NCBI RefSeq assembly: GCF_000011085.1
Contig: NC_006396.1
Coordinates: 620,001 to 684,000 of the forward strand
Direction of reading: 5' to 3'
DNA: 64,000 nucleotides
Origin: Haloarcula marismortui ATCC 43049
GTDB taxonomy: Archaea; Halobacteriota; Halobacteria; Halobacteriales; Haloarculaceae
Below, piece after piece: positions 36,629 to 43,435 of the stretch (the first letter of the stretch is position 1; each line of letters starts with the position of its first letter). The translations under genes were made by a program, and so were the position numbers. The notes below the pieces were generated by a model. It did not search any database and was not told where the DNA came from. It saw only the letters and a program-made list of their open reading frames with translations.

Positions 36629-37051
36629 TCAGACGTGGCCCTGTTCTTTCGCCCCCTCGCGGATTTTCTTCGACCGCTTACGGACGCGTGACACGTACCG
36701 TTCGATTTTCTCCGGTTTCTCGCCGTAGAACGACGCGGCCCAGTGAACGTCGACGCCGTCTTGCGTGAGGAAGTACGCGACGAGCGTATCACGGCCCGCC
36801 TGTATGACTGTCGGCGGCACGCCGCGGTCGCCGGTCCCGGCCTCCTGAAAGCCGTTTACGTCGAAGTACACATCAGCGTACAGCGTCGCCATGTCCGGGT
36901 CGTCGAATGCAATTCTCTGGTGATCTGGGGCCTCAAAGCGATACCGTGTCTCGCCGTCAGCAGTGGTCCGTTCGGTGATTCGGACGCCGAGGATATACTC
37001 ACGATACGTCTCTAAGTCGGTTACAGTGTTTGAGTTGTCAGTCTGAGCCAT
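36629..37051 (-). CDS. 140-aa conserved protein linked to PhoX, copy A
   Basis: Soluble protein MAQTDNSNTVTDLETYREYI with TRYRFEAPDHQRIAFDDPDM and a C-terminal half, PPTVIQAGRDTLVAYFLTQ through a basic YVSRVRKRSKKIREGAKEQG helix. It is unusually basic at the C terminus for a haloarchaeon. A paralogue of identical length lies at 39534-39956. Both follow a phoX gene on the same strand, so they probably belong to the same functional cassette. No known domain recognised. Confidence 0.75.
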   Translation of the reverse strand: MAQTDNSNTVTDLETYREYILGVRITERTTADGETRYRFEAPDHQRIAFDDPDMATLYADVYFDVNGFQEAGTGDRGVPPTVIQAGRDTLVAYFLTQDGVDVHWAASFYGEKPEKIERYVSRVRKRSKKIREGAKEQGHV

Positions 37052-37114: not shown

Positions 37115-39274
37115 TTAGCTGTTGCTCCCGTTGCCGCTGTGGCCATTCTCGTTACCGTTGTTGCTATTTTCGTTGCCGTTGTTACCGTTGCCGCTGTTGC
37201 CGTTACCGCTATTCCCGTTTCTCGTCTTTTCTTCGGGCTCCTGTGGCTCGTAGACGTAGAGCCCGTCGTTCGGGTACGAACGCGCGGGGCCGCCGAAGCC
37301 GTCCTCACAGCAGAGGACGCGTCCGTCGTCCATCACGTAGACGTTATCGACGTTCCGGAGCGCGTCGTCGGCGTCTTCTGGCTCGTCGGTGAAGTCGGGG
37401 CCGACAATGACCGGTTCGAGCGTCGAGATGTTGTAGTCCGATTCCAGCACACCGCGATAGACGACGCCACCGTCGACGCGGTCCATCTGGATGTCGCCCT
37501 CGTCGTTTGCGAGGTCGTCGTTGAACTCCGAAATACCGAAGTAGACTGGGTCGCCCGGTCCGGCACCGTCCTTGCTGTCGACACCCTCTGCTTTGTTGAA
37601 CTCGATCGATACGCCGACTTCCTTTGCCGCCGCACGGGTTTCGAGGAACGGAACCCGGCGGAGTTCCTCGTCAACGCCGTCAGGACCTTCGGCGTAGTAC
37701 TGGTCGGCCCACTCGACAATTTCCTCGTTGGTGATGTAGTTCTGGTTGCCGTTCTCGATGACTTCTCGGTCAGCCTCCTCGAGGGCGGCCTCGCGGTCCT
37801 CCATCCAGTCAGACCCGGCGTGGACTCGGAGATAGTCAGATTGCGTGATGTCGTCGTATTCGGCAATCCACTCTTCGATTTCCGCGTTGCTTGCACTACC
37901 CAGCGGAATCCACTCGATGTCGAGCGAGTACTCAGCCGGAGACTTCCGTGTGCCAACCGTCGACGCGTCCGCCTGTGGGTTCGTAATCTTCGGCGCGTAC
38001 AGCGTGCCCGACACGTCCATCGGGTCGTCGTACTTCGGAATCCGCTCGTCGGCGACGAACTTGTAGATGCCCTTGCTGTCGCCGTCCGAGCACATATAGA
38101 CAGTTTGCTCGTCGGCCTGAATGTTCGGTGCCTCCCATGAGGCCCGCCCCATCACGTAGTACTTGACTGGCTGTGGCGGGTCGGCGGTCGGCTCGCGGAA
38201 GTCGACGTGGTAGCCATATCGGTACGGGTTCGGATACGTATCAGAGATCGGTTCGGTGCTATTGCTGTTTGAGTTCTGATATGACTGCTCAGAACCGAGA
38301 TAATACGCGAGGAATTCCACGCCGTCCAGCGCCCAGTATCCCTGGATGCTCCAAGCTTCGTCGCCGTAGTAGTCGTCGACGGCGCTCTGAATCTCAGTCG
38401 GGTTCGGTCGGTTCCAGAACTGCGCACCACCGATGCGTCCCTTTCCGGTGCCGGCGTCGACGATGTCACCGACTTGGTTGGTCAGCGACACACGGGGGTG
38501 GGCGTAGTTCTCCTCTGAAGAGATCATTGTTCCCCACGGGCTAAGATCGCCGTAACAGTTGATCCGCGTGCCACCGATCTCACGGAACGGCTCCGTGTTC
38601 GCCAGGTTGATCGCGTCATCGAGGTCGGCTTCCCACTCGCCGTCGAAAGTCTGGCGCAACGGGATTCGACTGACGTTGCCCGGACTGTTCTCCCAGTTGG
38701 TAAACAGGTACCCTTCAGTTCCGTCCTCGTCTGTCGGGACAAACTGATTACAGTCAGGGTTCGTCCCAGCCGCACCGTACTGCGTCCCTTCGAAATTGTC
38801 TAGCGTGATGTCCGTTCCGTCCGGCGTCTGCGTCACGCCGAGGCGCTCTTCGCCGTCGTTGATTTTGTCCCGACCGTGTGCGAGGATTTCGTATTCCCCG
38901 TCGCCTGACCGGACCTGACGCTGCTCCGCCTCGGTCTGTGGCGTCGACAGCTCGTCGAAGTCGTCGTTAGTCCCATCAAGTTCGAACTGGAAACCACTGA
39001 AATAGCCGATTCCAGCAGTGTCGAACGGCTCCGGATTTTCCTCCTCAGGATGCTGGAGACTGTACAGGAGTGCCCCGTTCTGGAAGACAAACGGCCCTGT
39101 CACCTCCGCCCCGAACGCTGTCGTCGAAAATCGTTTGAGGTCACCCTTGACAGTCCCCGAGCCGACTGTCTCAGATTCTGCGACCTCATCACCACTTGCC
39201 ACACCGATGACACTGGCCCCAAGCGCAGCTGCCACCGATTTCGAGAGTACCTGTCGTCGACTAAAATCGACCAT
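37115..39274 (-). CDS. phoX: PhoX-family secreted phosphatase, copy 1
   Basis: 719-aa exported protein of the PhoX/DUF839 family (Ca/Fe alkaline phosphatases that release phosphate from organic esters). The twin-arginine signal is FSRRQVLSKSVAAALGASVI. Family segments include NCYGDLSPWGTMISSEENY with the conserved iron-ligand Cys, CSDGDSKGIYKFVADERIP, and VYVMDDGRVLCCEDGFGGP. The C terminus after YVYEPQEPEEK is a ~36-residue Asn/Gly/Ser repeat tail. Start is at MVDFSRRQ, four codons after another ATG. Function as phosphatase is inferred from family. Confidence 0.88.
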   Translation of the reverse strand: MVDFSRRQVLSKSVAAALGASVIGVASGDEVAESETVGSGTVKGDLKRFSTTAFGAEVTGPFVFQNGALLYSLQHPEEENPEPFDTAGIGYFSGFQFELDGTNDDFDELSTPQTEAEQRQVRSGDGEYEILAHGRDKINDGEERLGVTQTPDGTDITLDNFEGTQYGAAGTNPDCNQFVPTDEDGTEGYLFTNWENSPGNVSRIPLRQTFDGEWEADLDDAINLANTEPFREIGGTRINCYGDLSPWGTMISSEENYAHPRVSLTNQVGDIVDAGTGKGRIGGAQFWNRPNPTEIQSAVDDYYGDEAWSIQGYWALDGVEFLAYYLGSEQSYQNSNSNSTEPISDTYPNPYRYGYHVDFREPTADPPQPVKYYVMGRASWEAPNIQADEQTVYMCSDGDSKGIYKFVADERIPKYDDPMDVSGTLYAPKITNPQADASTVGTRKSPAEYSLDIEWIPLGSASNAEIEEWIAEYDDITQSDYLRVHAGSDWMEDREAALEEADREVIENGNQNYITNEEIVEWADQYYAEGPDGVDEELRRVPFLETRAAAKEVGVSIEFNKAEGVDSKDGAGPGDPVYFGISEFNDDLANDEGDIQMDRVDGGVVYRGVLESDYNISTLEPVIVGPDFTDEPEDADDALRNVDNVYVMDDGRVLCCEDGFGGPARSYPNDGLYVYEPQEPEEKTRNGNSGNGNSGNGNNGNENSNNGNENGHSGNGSNS

Positions 39275-39307
39275 GCACCTGTTCAAGCGGAGGGTGCTTT
39301 AAAACCG

Positions 39308-39533: not shown

Positions 39534-39956
39534 TCAGGCGTGGCCCTGTTCTTTTGCCCCCTCGCGGATTTTCTTCGACCGCTTGCGGACGCGTGAGACG
39601 TATCGTTCAATTTTCTCCGGTTTCTCGCCGTAGAACGACGCCGCCCAGTGAACGTCGACGCCCGCTTGGGTGAGAAAGTAGGCGACCAGCGTATCACGGC
39701 CAGCCTGTATGACTGTCGGTGGCACGCCGCGCTCGCCGGTCCCGGCCTCTTGGAAGCCGTTCACATCGAAGTACACATCAGCGTATAGCGTTGCCATCTC
39801 GGGGTCATCGAACTCGACGCCCTCGTGGTCTGGGGCCTCGAACCGATAGCGTGTGTCACCCTCGCCTGTCGGTCGTTCTGCGATGCGTATGCCGAGGATG
39901 TACTCGCGATAGGTCGAACTGTCCATCGGTGCAACAGTGGTGTCTGATTGTGGCAT
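39534..39956 (-). CDS. 140-aa conserved protein linked to PhoX, copy B
   Basis: Paralogue of the protein at 36629-37051. The last ~70 residues are almost identical between copies (for instance DVHWAASFYGEKPEKIERYV), while the N-terminal ~35 differ (MPQSDTTVAPMDSSTYREYI). It is the final gene of the phoX2-cohesin-140aa operon, 16 nt behind the cohesin gene. The uneven divergence suggests gene conversion or strong constraint on the C-terminal half. Function unknown. Confidence 0.75.
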   Translation of the reverse strand: MPQSDTTVAPMDSSTYREYILGIRIAERPTGEGDTRYRFEAPDHEGVEFDDPEMATLYADVYFDVNGFQEAGTGERGVPPTVIQAGRDTLVAYFLTQAGVDVHWAASFYGEKPEKIERYVSRVRKRSKKIREGAKEQGHA

Positions 39957-39972
39957 GGATAGGTTGGTGATG

Positions 39973-40713
39973 CTACGGTTGTCGGCTCGTTCTAGCTGCG
40001 AGCGCCGCCACCGCAGCGAGTGCGGCGATGGCCAGCGCTATTGGGAGTGGCCCGTTCGCGCTAGTCGTCGACCGGTCGCCGCTATCCGCTGTGGTACCTG
40101 CGGCGTTTGCGGTGCCCGCTGACTCGGCTGTGGACTCGCTGGCGGATGACGATGCGTCGGTCATAGCGGTCGCTGTCTCCGTCGATGCGCTCGGAGAGAC
40201 TGCGACCGCCGTCGGCTCGGTCGCAGGTTCGACCACGCCGCCGCCGTCCGCGTCGACCTGACTCGACGCGACGGTCACCTGTGTCTCGCCGCCGGCGACA
40301 CCGGTGAGTTGGACCGTCGCGAGCGTCACGTCGCTCGCGCCGGGTTCTATCTGCCCGTCGAGGTCAGCCGCCTCAAGCGTGACTGTCCCACCGTCTGAAC
40401 TAATGACAGGGTCAGTCGTGAGGCCGAGGCGGTCGGGGTAGCTTGCGTTCTCAAATCGGGCGACTGCGGGGTCATCAACGGAGAGTTCGAGCTGGTAGCC
40501 GGCCAGTCCGTCCGGTGCGCTGGTGAGAACGACCGGCACGGCCATCGTTTCACCGGCAGCGACGGAGCCGGTCTCGATGCTGATTGCTGGCGTACTCTGC
40601 CCTGCAGCGAGCGCGGGGACCGTCCCCGCGAGGAGGACGAGCGCGACGAGCGCGAGCGGGGTGCCAGCGGTTCTGACGCAACCGCGTATCGAAAGGGGGC
40701 TGTCGTCTGTCAT
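39973..40713 (-). CDS. Membrane-anchored cohesin-like protein
   Basis: 246 aa. A signal peptide/TM occupies about residues 12-37 (TPLALVALVLLAGTVPALA). Residues ~42-165 form a cohesin-like beta-sandwich: ISIETGSVAAGETMAVPVVL, LAGYQLELSVDDPAVARFEN, then PGASDVTLATVQLTGVAGGE. A Ser/Thr/Ala-rich stalk follows, and a C-terminal helix (LPIALAIAALAAVAALAA) with a basic end anchors it outward. Its module resembles the one inside PhoX copy 2, whose gene ends 43 nt upstream and which also has a dockerin-like end. It may dock that enzyme to the surface. Confidence 0.78.
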   Translation of the reverse strand: MTDDSPLSIRGCVRTAGTPLALVALVLLAGTVPALAAGQSTPAISIETGSVAAGETMAVPVVLTSAPDGLAGYQLELSVDDPAVARFENASYPDRLGLTTDPVISSDGGTVTLEAADLDGQIEPGASDVTLATVQLTGVAGGETQVTVASSQVDADGGGVVEPATEPTAVAVSPSASTETATAMTDASSSASESTAESAGTANAAGTTADSGDRSTTSANGPLPIALAIAALAAVAALAARTSRQP

Positions 40714-40756
40714 TGTGTTCCTGTATGGAAAGATGAGAGGGGGTCGGTTGCGGCCG

Positions 40757-43435
40757 TCAGTTGACCTCTTCGTAGAGCGCCGTCACATCCGCGAAGTCGA
40801 GTTTGCCGTTCTCATTGAAGTCGTACGCGCCGGTGTTCAGCTGCACGCTGTCGGAGTCCATATTCGAGAACAGCACCTGCACGTCCTCGTAGTCGAGACG
40901 GCCGTTGCCGTTGAGGTCCTCGAAGTGACCGTCGCCGTCGGGGTCGGTCGGCGCGGCGTCGCCGACGACCGTCTGCGGGCCACCCACAACGATGCCGTTT
41001 CGAGCTTCTGCCTCGATGGCGTTCCCGTTTTCGTCATCCATCTGCTCGATGGAGACAGTCAGGTCGGTCGTGCCGCCGCCGTTGGCGCGGACATCGAGCG
41101 TTGCGAGCGACACATCCCTCGCGCCGGACTGGACGTTCGTGTTGACATCGGCCACGCGAATCGTCGCCGACGAGCCGTCATCGCTGACGGAACTCTCGGT
41201 GAGTCCGAGTGCGTCGGGGAATGAGACGCCGGTGATAGACGCGATTTCGGGGTTCGAGACGTTGACGGTGAGCCGAGCGCCGGAGAAGCCAGCAGGGAGC
41301 GACGAGGCAGTCAGCGAGACGGTACCCGTCGACCCACTCCCGACCGCGGCGGAGTTGGCGCTGACGGTGACGGTCGGCTGGTAGACATAGAGCCCGTCGT
41401 TCGGGTACGAGCGCGCGGGGCCGCCGAAGCCGTCCTCACAGCAGAGGACGCGACCATCACGCATCGTGTAGACGTTGTCGATGTTCCGGAGTGCGTCGTT
41501 TGCGTCTTCTGGCTCGTCGGTGAAGTCGGGGCCGGTGATGACCGGTTCGAGCGTCGAGACGTTGTAATCCGATTCCAGCACACCGCGATAGACGACGCCG
41601 CCGTCGACGCGGTCCATCTGGATGTCGCCGGTGTCGTTTGCGAGGTCGTCGTTGAACTCCGAAATGCCGAAGTAGATGAAATCGCCGGGCTGTGAGTTAT
41701 CCACGGTGTCGACACCCTCGGCCTTGTTGAACTCGATGGTCGCACCGATCTCCTTGGCGGCTGCGCGGGTCTCAAGGAACGGGATGCGACGGAGTTCCTC
41801 GTCGACGCCGTCTGGGCCGTTCGCCTCGTACTGTTCGGCCCACTCGACGATGTCCTCGTTCGTGATGTAACTCTGATTGCCGCTTGCGCTCTGGAGGACT
41901 GTAAGGTCGGCTTCTCTGACCGCGTCGGACACCGAGACGTCCGTCCCGATTTCGTCCACACTGTATTCGGTGTGCTCCGTGATATAGTCGGCCTGCGTGA
42001 CGTCGTCGTACTCCGCGATCCACTCGGCAGCCTCGCCGTTCGTGGCGTGACCGAGCTCCATCCATTCGATTTCCAGCGGAGTCTGTGCGGGAGAGTTACG
42101 TTGGCCGGCTTCGGCGGCGTTGGCCGCGTCGTTTGTAATCTTTGGCGCGTACAGCGTGCCTGCGATGTCGTCGGTGTTGTCGTACTCCGGAATTGGCTCG
42201 TCGGCGACGAACTTGTAGATGCCCTTGCTATCGCCGTCCGAACAGCCGTAGACAGTCCGCTGGTCGCCCTGGATATCGGGTGCTTCCCAGGCGGCCCGAC
42301 CCATGACGTAGTACTTCATCGGACTCGGCGTCTCGGCAGCCGGTTCCCGGATGTCGACGAAGTACCCGTAGCGGTACGGGTTCGGGTAGACGTCATCGAT
42401 TAGCGTCATATCGTTCCCGTCCTCAGTCTGGTCGACCGTGTCCGCACCGAGGTAGTACGCCGCCTTCTCGACACCGGCCTGAGACCAGTAGCCCTGAATA
42501 GTGAACTCTTCCTCAATGTCACCGGCCTCAACGTAGTCACCGAGTGCCTCCCCGATCTCCGACGGATTCGGACGGTTCCAGAACTGACAGCCACCGATTT
42601 TTCCGACACCGGTGCCGGACTCCACGATGTCGCCCACTGTGTGCGTGTATGAGACGCGCGGGTGGCTGTAGTTCTCCTCGGCGGAAATCATCGTCTCCCA
42701 CGGGCTGAGGTCACCGTAGCAGTTGACCCACGTCCCGCCGATATCGCGGAACGGCTCAGTGTTGACGACGTTGAGTGTCATGTCCGAACCGACATCGGCA
42801 CTCCACTCACCACTCTCATCCTGACTTATTGGGACTCGCGAGATGCAACCGGGGTAGTTCTCCCAGTTTGTGAACAGATATCCTTCGGTGCCCTCGTCGT
42901 CTGTTGCGACGAACTGGTTGCAGTCCGGATTTTGCCCATAGCCACCACTGCTTCCATTGAGCGCAGTAAGGTCGACGCCATCGGGTGTCTGTGGGACACC
43001 GAGGCGCTCCTCGCCGCCCTGAATCTCTTCGCGGCCCTGAATAAGGACCTCGTAGTCACCGGCCGCTGACCGGACTTGACGCTGTTTCTCTTCGGTGTCC
43101 GGAATCCCCACCTCCGAGAAATCGTCGTTACTCCCGTCGAACTCGAACTGGAAGCCGCTGAAATAGCCCACCGCGGCCCGTCCGAACGGTTCGGGGTTCT
43201 CTCCTTCCGGGTGCTGGAGGCTGTACAGCAGTGACCCGTCCTCGAAGACGAACGGTCCCGTCACCTCCGCGCCGAATGCCGTCGTCGAGAAGCGTTTGAG
43301 ACTTCCGGCGACGCTCGGTGCCCCGGGTGTGTCTGTTTCTTCGACCTCTTCCCCACTTGCCACGCCGATGACGCTGGCCCCAAGTGCAGCAGCCACCGAC
43401 TGTGAAAGTACCTGCCGTCGAGTGAAATCGACCAT
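40757..43435 (-). CDS. phoX: PhoX-family phosphatase with cohesin-like and dockerin-like modules, copy 2
   Basis: 892-aa exported protein. TAT signal FTRRQVLSQSVAAALGASVI; PhoX catalytic core to about residue 687, with NCYGDLSPWETMISAEENY and CSDGDSKGIYKFVADEPIP closely matching copy 1. Residues ~688-824 are a cohesin-like domain (TVSANSAAVGSGSTGTVSL ... GARDVSLATLDVRANGGG). Residues ~825-892 are dockerin-like with duplicated Ca-binding F-hands, DLNGNGRLDYEDVQVLF and DFNENGKLDFADVTALY. It heads an operon with the cohesin protein and the 140-aa protein. Module identities are from motif reading. Confidence 0.87.
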   Translation of the reverse strand: MVDFTRRQVLSQSVAAALGASVIGVASGEEVEETDTPGAPSVAGSLKRFSTTAFGAEVTGPFVFEDGSLLYSLQHPEGENPEPFGRAAVGYFSGFQFEFDGSNDDFSEVGIPDTEEKQRQVRSAAGDYEVLIQGREEIQGGEERLGVPQTPDGVDLTALNGSSGGYGQNPDCNQFVATDDEGTEGYLFTNWENYPGCISRVPISQDESGEWSADVGSDMTLNVVNTEPFRDIGGTWVNCYGDLSPWETMISAEENYSHPRVSYTHTVGDIVESGTGVGKIGGCQFWNRPNPSEIGEALGDYVEAGDIEEEFTIQGYWSQAGVEKAAYYLGADTVDQTEDGNDMTLIDDVYPNPYRYGYFVDIREPAAETPSPMKYYVMGRAAWEAPDIQGDQRTVYGCSDGDSKGIYKFVADEPIPEYDNTDDIAGTLYAPKITNDAANAAEAGQRNSPAQTPLEIEWMELGHATNGEAAEWIAEYDDVTQADYITEHTEYSVDEIGTDVSVSDAVREADLTVLQSASGNQSYITNEDIVEWAEQYEANGPDGVDEELRRIPFLETRAAAKEIGATIEFNKAEGVDTVDNSQPGDFIYFGISEFNDDLANDTGDIQMDRVDGGVVYRGVLESDYNVSTLEPVITGPDFTDEPEDANDALRNIDNVYTMRDGRVLCCEDGFGGPARSYPNDGLYVYQPTVTVSANSAAVGSGSTGTVSLTASSLPAGFSGARLTVNVSNPEIASITGVSFPDALGLTESSVSDDGSSATIRVADVNTNVQSGARDVSLATLDVRANGGGTTDLTVSIEQMDDENGNAIEAEARNGIVVGGPQTVVGDAAPTDPDGDGHFEDLNGNGRLDYEDVQVLFSNMDSDSVQLNTGAYDFNENGKLDFADVTALYEEVN

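Follow-up and report, generated by a model that had tools for sequence, protein, structure and literature searches.

Cohesins and dockerins outside cellulosomes are established in archaea, and some of them are reported to bind in those passages of PMC9012536 that cite earlier work. Among the closest described systems, the non-cellulosomal cohesin and dockerin of Archaeoglobus fulgidus (2xdh) involve a single cohesin and no cellulosome, and the dockerin and cohesin proteins of anaerobic methanotrophic (ANME) archaea form networks, some of them linked to S-layer domains (PMC9012536). In bacterial cellulosomes, the anchoring scaffoldins with a single or few cohesins (OlpA/OlpC, ScaE) present a membrane- or wall-anchored cohesin to an enzyme dockerin with F-hand calcium loops. 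In papers on the polysaccharide enzymes of haloarchaea, the dockerin is regarded as substrate-binding (PMC10963439, PMC13260240). A defined biological role has so far been lacking for the archaeal non-cellulosomal modules; here we offer a fixed enzyme-receptor pair that is conserved in a large class. The pair was found in a window (the whole stretch of DNA analysed) of 64,000 nucleotides from Haloarcula marismortui ATCC 43049 (NC_006396.1, positions 620,001 to 684,000). It consists of the phosphatase PhoX with a C-terminal dockerin and a neighbouring gene for a membrane-anchored cohesin, which probably act together as a two-gene surface-display system, the PhoX dockerin being held by the cohesin of the neighbour.

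The PhoX locus and its modules

The features of the pair are as follows (positions in the window):

40757..43435, minus strand: open reading frame (ORF) of alkaline phosphatase PhoX, 892 amino acids (aa), with a twin-arginine signal (RRQVL) and a C-terminal cohesin-like domain plus dockerin tail
40988..41368, minus strand: cohesin-fold domain of PhoX, codons 690-816 (family hidden Markov model (HMM), E=7e-45; the AlphaFold model resembles cohesins)
40760..40951, minus strand: dockerin module of PhoX, codons 829-892, an acidic DPDGDG loop followed by two F-hand calcium loops (family HMM, E=1e-30)
40883..40918, minus strand: F-hand loop 1, DLNGNGRLDYED, holding Arg18 and Tyr21 (dockerin numbering; the Tyr is codon 849)
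40787..40822, minus strand: F-hand loop 2, DFNENGKLDFAD, calcium-ligand positions kept
39973..40713, minus strand: ORF of the cohesin anchor protein, 246 aa, with a signal peptide, a single cohesin, a Ser/Thr-rich stalk and a C-terminal transmembrane helix
40198..40584, minus strand: cohesin domain of the anchor, codons 44-172, predicted dockerin receptor (AlphaFold, Foldseek; as an isolated domain, Pfam Cohesin E=4e-4)
39994..40050, minus strand: C-terminal transmembrane helix of the anchor, codons about 222-240 (hydropathy)

The anchor gene begins 43 base pairs (bp) downstream of PhoX. Coordinates, gene order, this gap and the make-up of both proteins agree with a preliminary description of the locus. 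PhoX itself matches the Pfam PhoX family (E=3.7e-19, 69.7 bits against a cut-off of 24) and, weakly (E=0.0011), the PhoX crystal structures 3zwu/4amf over a region spanning the conserved NC..EEN motifs.

Domain borders were taken from iterated profiles built in this analysis (the family HMMs). AlphaFold2 models covering PhoX residues 676-892 and the anchor domain served as Foldseek queries against the PDB. With the PhoX tail, every one of the top 50 matches is a cohesin structure, and the Archaeoglobus non-cellulosomal cohesin 2xdh is among them. The anchor domain is modelled (predicted local distance difference test, pLDDT, 83) with the nine-stranded jelly-roll fold of cohesins; 49 of its 50 top matches are cohesins or cohesin-containing structures (TM-score about 0.7), among them 2jh2 (6e-8) and 2xdh (2.2e-6).

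The preliminary description had proposed a Pfam search as a check, and for the window copies its outcome is borderline. Taken alone, the window sequences stay just below the gathering cut-offs (22.6 against 22.9 bits for the dockerin with Dockerin_1, 21.0 against 24.1 for the anchor domain with Cohesin; E=0.0018 for the whole anchor protein). Their relatives do match: 31 of 34 family tails with Dockerin_1 (best 5.8e-11, several above the cut-off) and 4 of 17 anchor family members with Cohesin at E<=0.01 (best 1.5e-7). Pfam thresholds alone are unreliable here, a whole-protein scan having missed a strong cohesin that scores 48 bits as an isolated domain. The PhoX-borne domain found no match to the Cohesin profile at E<=1, and for this reason we call it cohesin-like and do not claim that it binds dockerins. 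It forms one homologous family with the anchor domain, and judged by modelled fold and by this kinship it is a cohesin homologue.

On the dockerin side, a 22-residue F-hand occurs twice, its calcium ligands standing at loop positions 1, 3, 5, 9 and 12. The ligands are D/N/N/D/D in both loops and all ten positions are identical in 68/68 PhoX/anchor pairs, so that the dockerin match is not due to chance. A profile made from 34 tails matches solved dockerins (2mte 7.5e-7, 1daq 8.1e-7, 6kgc_B 3.1e-5, 1ohz_B 9.7e-5) and also ordinary EF-hand proteins. By fold and profile together, both modules fall within the cohesin and dockerin families, as had been proposed.

The transmembrane helix of the Haloarcula anchor has a position like that of PGF-CTERM with a degraded motif, and the window anchor gives no match to the PGF-CTERM model TIGR04126. 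Anchors of a related genus carry a true PGF-CTERM, a signal for sorting to the surface (38.8 and 35.7 bits against a cut-off of 24.5).

Conservation of the pair across Halobacteria

A class-wide scan of 342 Halobacteria genomes yielded an anchor-profile match in 137 and a dockerin in 150. Cohesin and dockerin occur together in 131 genomes (Fisher 8e-65), a figure raised artificially by single proteins that hold both modules. Gene order was read as well: 66 of the 68 strong anchor-type cohesins are directly preceded by a correctly oriented dockerin ORF, and at the strong anchors whose loci were read this ORF is PhoX in nearly all cases. About 70 species, from no fewer than four families, show the PhoX-anchor order, the two genes lying some 3-120 bp apart or overlapping slightly, and the anchor adjoins the PhoX tail in many genera of the host's own family. 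The expectation that the pair would be conserved together in relatives is thus confirmed throughout the Halobacteria. In a tree the PhoX-type anchors form one clade (100/98) and the PhoX cohesins another (99/91). Annotation of the Salarchaeum plasmid pJOR178 names PhoX and calls the anchor a 'hypothetical protein'; many proteins so labelled can now be explained as cohesin anchors.

Which partner the dockerin meets

In anchor-paired PhoX, Tyr21 is present in 68/68 and Arg18 in 67/68 proteins. Tyr21 is loop position 10, a recognition position in type I dockerins. The anchors are equally uniform, with Tyr49-Pro50, Glu71-Ala72, Asp111 and Gly115 each present in 68/68. The beta-strand position of Glu71 is Glu in 68/68 anchors against Arg in 60/68 PhoX cohesins, and hence the surfaces of the two cohesins are not equivalent.

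Eight PhoX proteins lack the anchor, meaning that none was detected by the anchor profile at the thresholds used. In all eight, Tyr21 is replaced or the dockerin is lost: the first five have His, Arg and, three times, Asp at residue 21, and three further cases retrieved as a test comprise one with Asp and two without dockerin (replacement in 6/6 that still have one). In the PhoX tree the eight belong to four lineages, of which at least three are forced by well-supported branches, and counting lineages the association between Tyr21 and anchor is significant (Fisher p=2.4e-6). Where gene order was read, the 140-aa gene that is third in the window's cluster follows PhoX directly in 5/5 anchorless loci. 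The altered dockerins have intact calcium-ligand positions, and the PhoX cohesin is kept in 8/8, including the two proteins without dockerin. The change is therefore specific to recognition rather than mere decay, and the simplest reading is that the partner of the dockerin is the anchor. This natural mutational experiment points to Tyr21 as a contact residue. Docking of the enzyme dockerin into the anchored cohesin, as first proposed from the window, thereby gains strong comparative support from the co-loss.

The same observations bear on a second proposal of the preliminary description, namely that PhoX might polymerise. Its dockerin would then bind the cohesin of another or the same PhoX, giving polymers or a closed clasp, and the anchor would only tether the chain end. 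Both modules do reside in one protein, joined by a constant linker of about 10-18 residues, and in several anchorless genomes PhoX's own cohesin is the only detectable one. Evolutionary distances of the dockerin, with the catalytic-domain signal removed, correlate with those of the PhoX cohesin (partial correlation 0.52) as well as with those of the anchor cohesin (partial r 0.40, permutation p=0.0005); as a means of choosing the partner this mirror-tree comparison did not discriminate between the two. Nevertheless, Tyr21 is changed or the dockerin gone exactly where the anchor is missing, whereas the PhoX cohesin persists, and the Glu/Arg difference sets the two cohesins apart. Self-assembly is weakened by this and we consider it unlikely.

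A further alternative is that the tail is an appendage, stabilised by calcium or binding substrate or glycan, and that the neighbour is an unrelated, adhesin-like surface protein. It would agree with the naming of type I dockerins as substrate-binding domains in the polysaccharide-enzyme papers (PMC10963439, PMC13260240) and with the EF-hand matches of the tail profile. However, the neighbour has a cohesin fold, the pairing is near-invariant and it is the recognition site that disappears upon anchor loss, with the calcium-ligand positions left intact. This makes the appendage very improbable, and the reading of haloarchaeal tails as substrate-binding domains is corrected accordingly.

Some observations do speak against docking to the anchor. 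The dockerin part of the PhoX model has low confidence (pLDDT only about 50-70), and some genomes (G071 and G072, for instance) contain dockerins without detectable cohesin. The Tyr21 pattern came to notice in five of the eight anchorless cases; the other three, checked later, agreed. One tailed PhoD phosphatase (L268) keeps Tyr21 in a genome without detected anchor, a minor exception. Finally, the dockerin correlates more strongly with the PhoX cohesin than with the anchor cohesin, though the former shares its polypeptide.

Two structural details of the interface were considered. A salt bridge between Arg18 of the dockerin and Glu71 of the anchor would fit PhoX but not the glycoside-hydrolase pairs, and is kept as a conjecture. 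The conserved Glu/Ala strand of the anchor may correspond to the known dockerin-facing side; this mapping relies on strand order because the sequence alignment between the anchor profile and a Clostridium thermocellum cohesin covers only about 38 columns.

Proposed mechanism and other phosphorus enzymes

In the surface-display system that we favour, PhoX would be exported via the twin-arginine translocation (Tat) pathway. Its calcium-loaded C-terminal dockerin would dock into the single cohesin of the membrane-anchored neighbour, which is presumably co-transcribed. The phosphatase would thus be kept at the cell surface, where the cell could capture the freed phosphate. The cohesin-like domain of PhoX is most likely a structural module beside the dockerin rather than the main receptor, and may stabilise the dockerin as X modules do. 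The role assigned to this archaeal dockerin is directly testable in genetically tractable haloarchaea.

Besides the pair, whole-genome scans of the host revealed two more dockerins and another strong cohesin. A PhoD phosphatase ends in a cohesin-dockerin tail like that of PhoX, its dockerin being 71% identical to the PhoX dockerin, and has no cohesin gene beside it. The other dockerin terminates a calcineurin-type phosphoesterase, whose gene overlaps a cohesin-protein gene by 4 bp. All three dockerins detected in the host thus sit on phosphoesterases, of three families. The second operon is located as follows:

L007:4672-7844 = host C8:2117671-2120843: second dockerin-phosphoesterase and cohesin operon

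Its cohesin protein has a Thr-rich stalk, a C-terminal transmembrane helix and a PGF-like C-terminus without family match. The cohesin domain reaches 48 bits with Pfam Cohesin (cut-off 24.1) and is present in 9 of 32 Haloarcula genomes.

Without an anchor gene of its own, the host PhoD probably shares the PhoX anchor. More generally, since the dockerins of PhoD and of 5'-nucleotidases, which also carry this type of tail, retain Tyr21, it is plausible from sequence that one anchor is common to several enzymes. One could go further and suppose that the anchor cohesin mainly receives other proteins such as PhoD, its adjacency to PhoX being an operon convenience. Most genomes with a tailed PhoD indeed possess the PhoX anchor as well. 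Most anchor genomes, however, hold a single dockerin, which is carried by PhoX, and it is the PhoX dockerin that is altered upon anchor loss, so we give this idea hardly any credence.

A cohesin-dockerin tail is also found on a secreted protein with a staphylococcal-nuclease (SNase) domain, which in four or more species is accompanied by an adjacent anchor of its own. The occurrence of the tail on PhoX, PhoD, 5'-nucleotidases and this nuclease suggests a phosphorus-scavenging surface system. Tentatively, and with the odds somewhat against it, such docking might be class-wide: nuclease, 5'-nucleotidases, PhoD and PhoX would dock by interchangeable tails on small anchored cohesins and degrade extracellular DNA and nucleotides stepwise at the cell surface, an archaeal phosphorus counterpart of the cellulosome. 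In one locus (L097) the PhoX cluster continues into genes for a PstS-like phosphate-type binding protein and an ABC permease. Secreted SNase/ABC-auxiliary proteins that carry a cohesin-dockerin tail, each with an anchor cohesin of its own downstream, were also seen (L090, L091, L247, L248).

Neighbouring genes and further cohesin-dockerin proteins

Three more genes of the window belong to the surroundings of the pair:

39534..39956, minus strand: ORF of a 140-aa protein, third gene of the PhoX cluster
37115..39286, minus strand: ORF of a second PhoX paralogue, without cohesin or dockerin
36629..37051, minus strand: ORF of a paralogue of the 140-aa protein, placed after the second PhoX

A Pfam scan of the 140-aa protein (39534..39956) matched no family; in many Halobacteria its gene comes after PhoX, whether an anchor is present or absent. 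Because the catalytic parts of the two PhoX proteins are 69% and the two 140-aa proteins 83% identical, PhoX plus the 140-aa gene is read from sequence as a tandem duplication, with docking tail and anchor gene in one copy only. Both PhoX upstream regions have a AAAAATAGC block and a TATTATAAAC box in common. This resemblance does not establish a shared regulatory motif, since the genes are paralogous tandem duplicates. A phage search gave no matches.

Elsewhere in the class, dockerins without a neighbouring cohesin-like domain occur on glycoside hydrolases, malectin proteins and subtilases. Subtilases (S8) of L262-L266 have a C-terminal dockerin with recognition residues Asn18 and Leu21, unlike the phosphatase type. 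A few proteins of other kinds nevertheless combine both modules (one GH5 enzyme, one cadherin-like protein).

Multi-cohesin proteins exist in other haloarchaeal genomes. In the host's family (G063), one protein of 1032 aa (L092:8102-11200) has five cohesins plus a C-terminal dockerin. Its neighbours are two GH5 enzymes with dockerins and an anchored cohesin, and we regard this as a candidate scaffoldin or cellulosome of haloarchaea. A single-contig 2.7-Mb haloarchaeal genome (G045 contig C1; L093, L099-L101) has at least 41 dockerins, 14 cohesin matches and several multi-cohesin proteins. Two congeners (L104:2975-14000, L105:2271-13000) show gene arrays of 3-cohesin, 2-cohesin plus dockerin (twice) and malectin plus dockerin proteins. 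Their dockerin loops are internally symmetric, VGDAQ/VGDAQ against VVDVQ/VVDVQ, which suggests separate specificities. A similar tail occurs outside Halobacteria in a Methanofollis metagenome-assembled genome (L073:1-5006), where a PKD-like/cohesin/dockerin protein gene overlaps by 4 bp with that of a papain-like protease bearing an anchor-type cohesin; related PKD proteins are also found on Methanosarcina plasmids.

Comparison with known systems

The preliminary description knew of no haloarchaeal system of this kind, and our literature search on haloarchaeal cohesin or phosphatase-dockerin systems (a 2009 review of non-cellulosomal modules lay outside it) likewise found nothing. Cohesin-dockerin pairs in general have already been described from archaea (PMC9012536 and works cited there). 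The role, the spread of the operon through the class and the evidence on which module binds which appear to be new. The result may also provide a salt-tolerant docking pair for protein engineering.

A cellulosome, defined by a multi-cohesin scaffoldin and dockerin-bearing glycoside hydrolases, is not what we see, as the PhoX system has one cohesin per anchor. This also separates it from OlpA/OlpC and ScaE, from which it further differs in having a phosphatase instead of a glycoside hydrolase, an archaeal transmembrane or PGF-CTERM anchor, high-salt acidic proteins and a cohesin-like domain on the enzyme too. In the X-module/dockerin dyads of type II and Ruminococcus systems (5m0y, 4iu2) a beta-sandwich domain likewise stands directly before the dockerin; that of PhoX is a cohesin homologue, unlike, we presume, the known X modules. 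Bacterial PhoX is exported via Tat. The Pseudomonas enzyme (3zwu/4amf) shares the catalytic family and the Tat-type export, but the matched PDB chains (588-592 residues) have no dockerin tail, whereas Halobacteria add a docking tail and a receptor gene. The Archaeoglobus fulgidus modules are likewise archaeal, and both window models match 2xdh; to our knowledge they have no tie to a conserved phosphatase-anchor operon, whereas in Halobacteria a phosphatase is the partner and conservation of the pair extends across a class. The ANME proteins are mostly ABC-transporter binding and multi-cohesin proteins without defined pairs, as far as they are covered in PMC9012536, whereas the Halobacteria possess a fixed enzyme-receptor pair.

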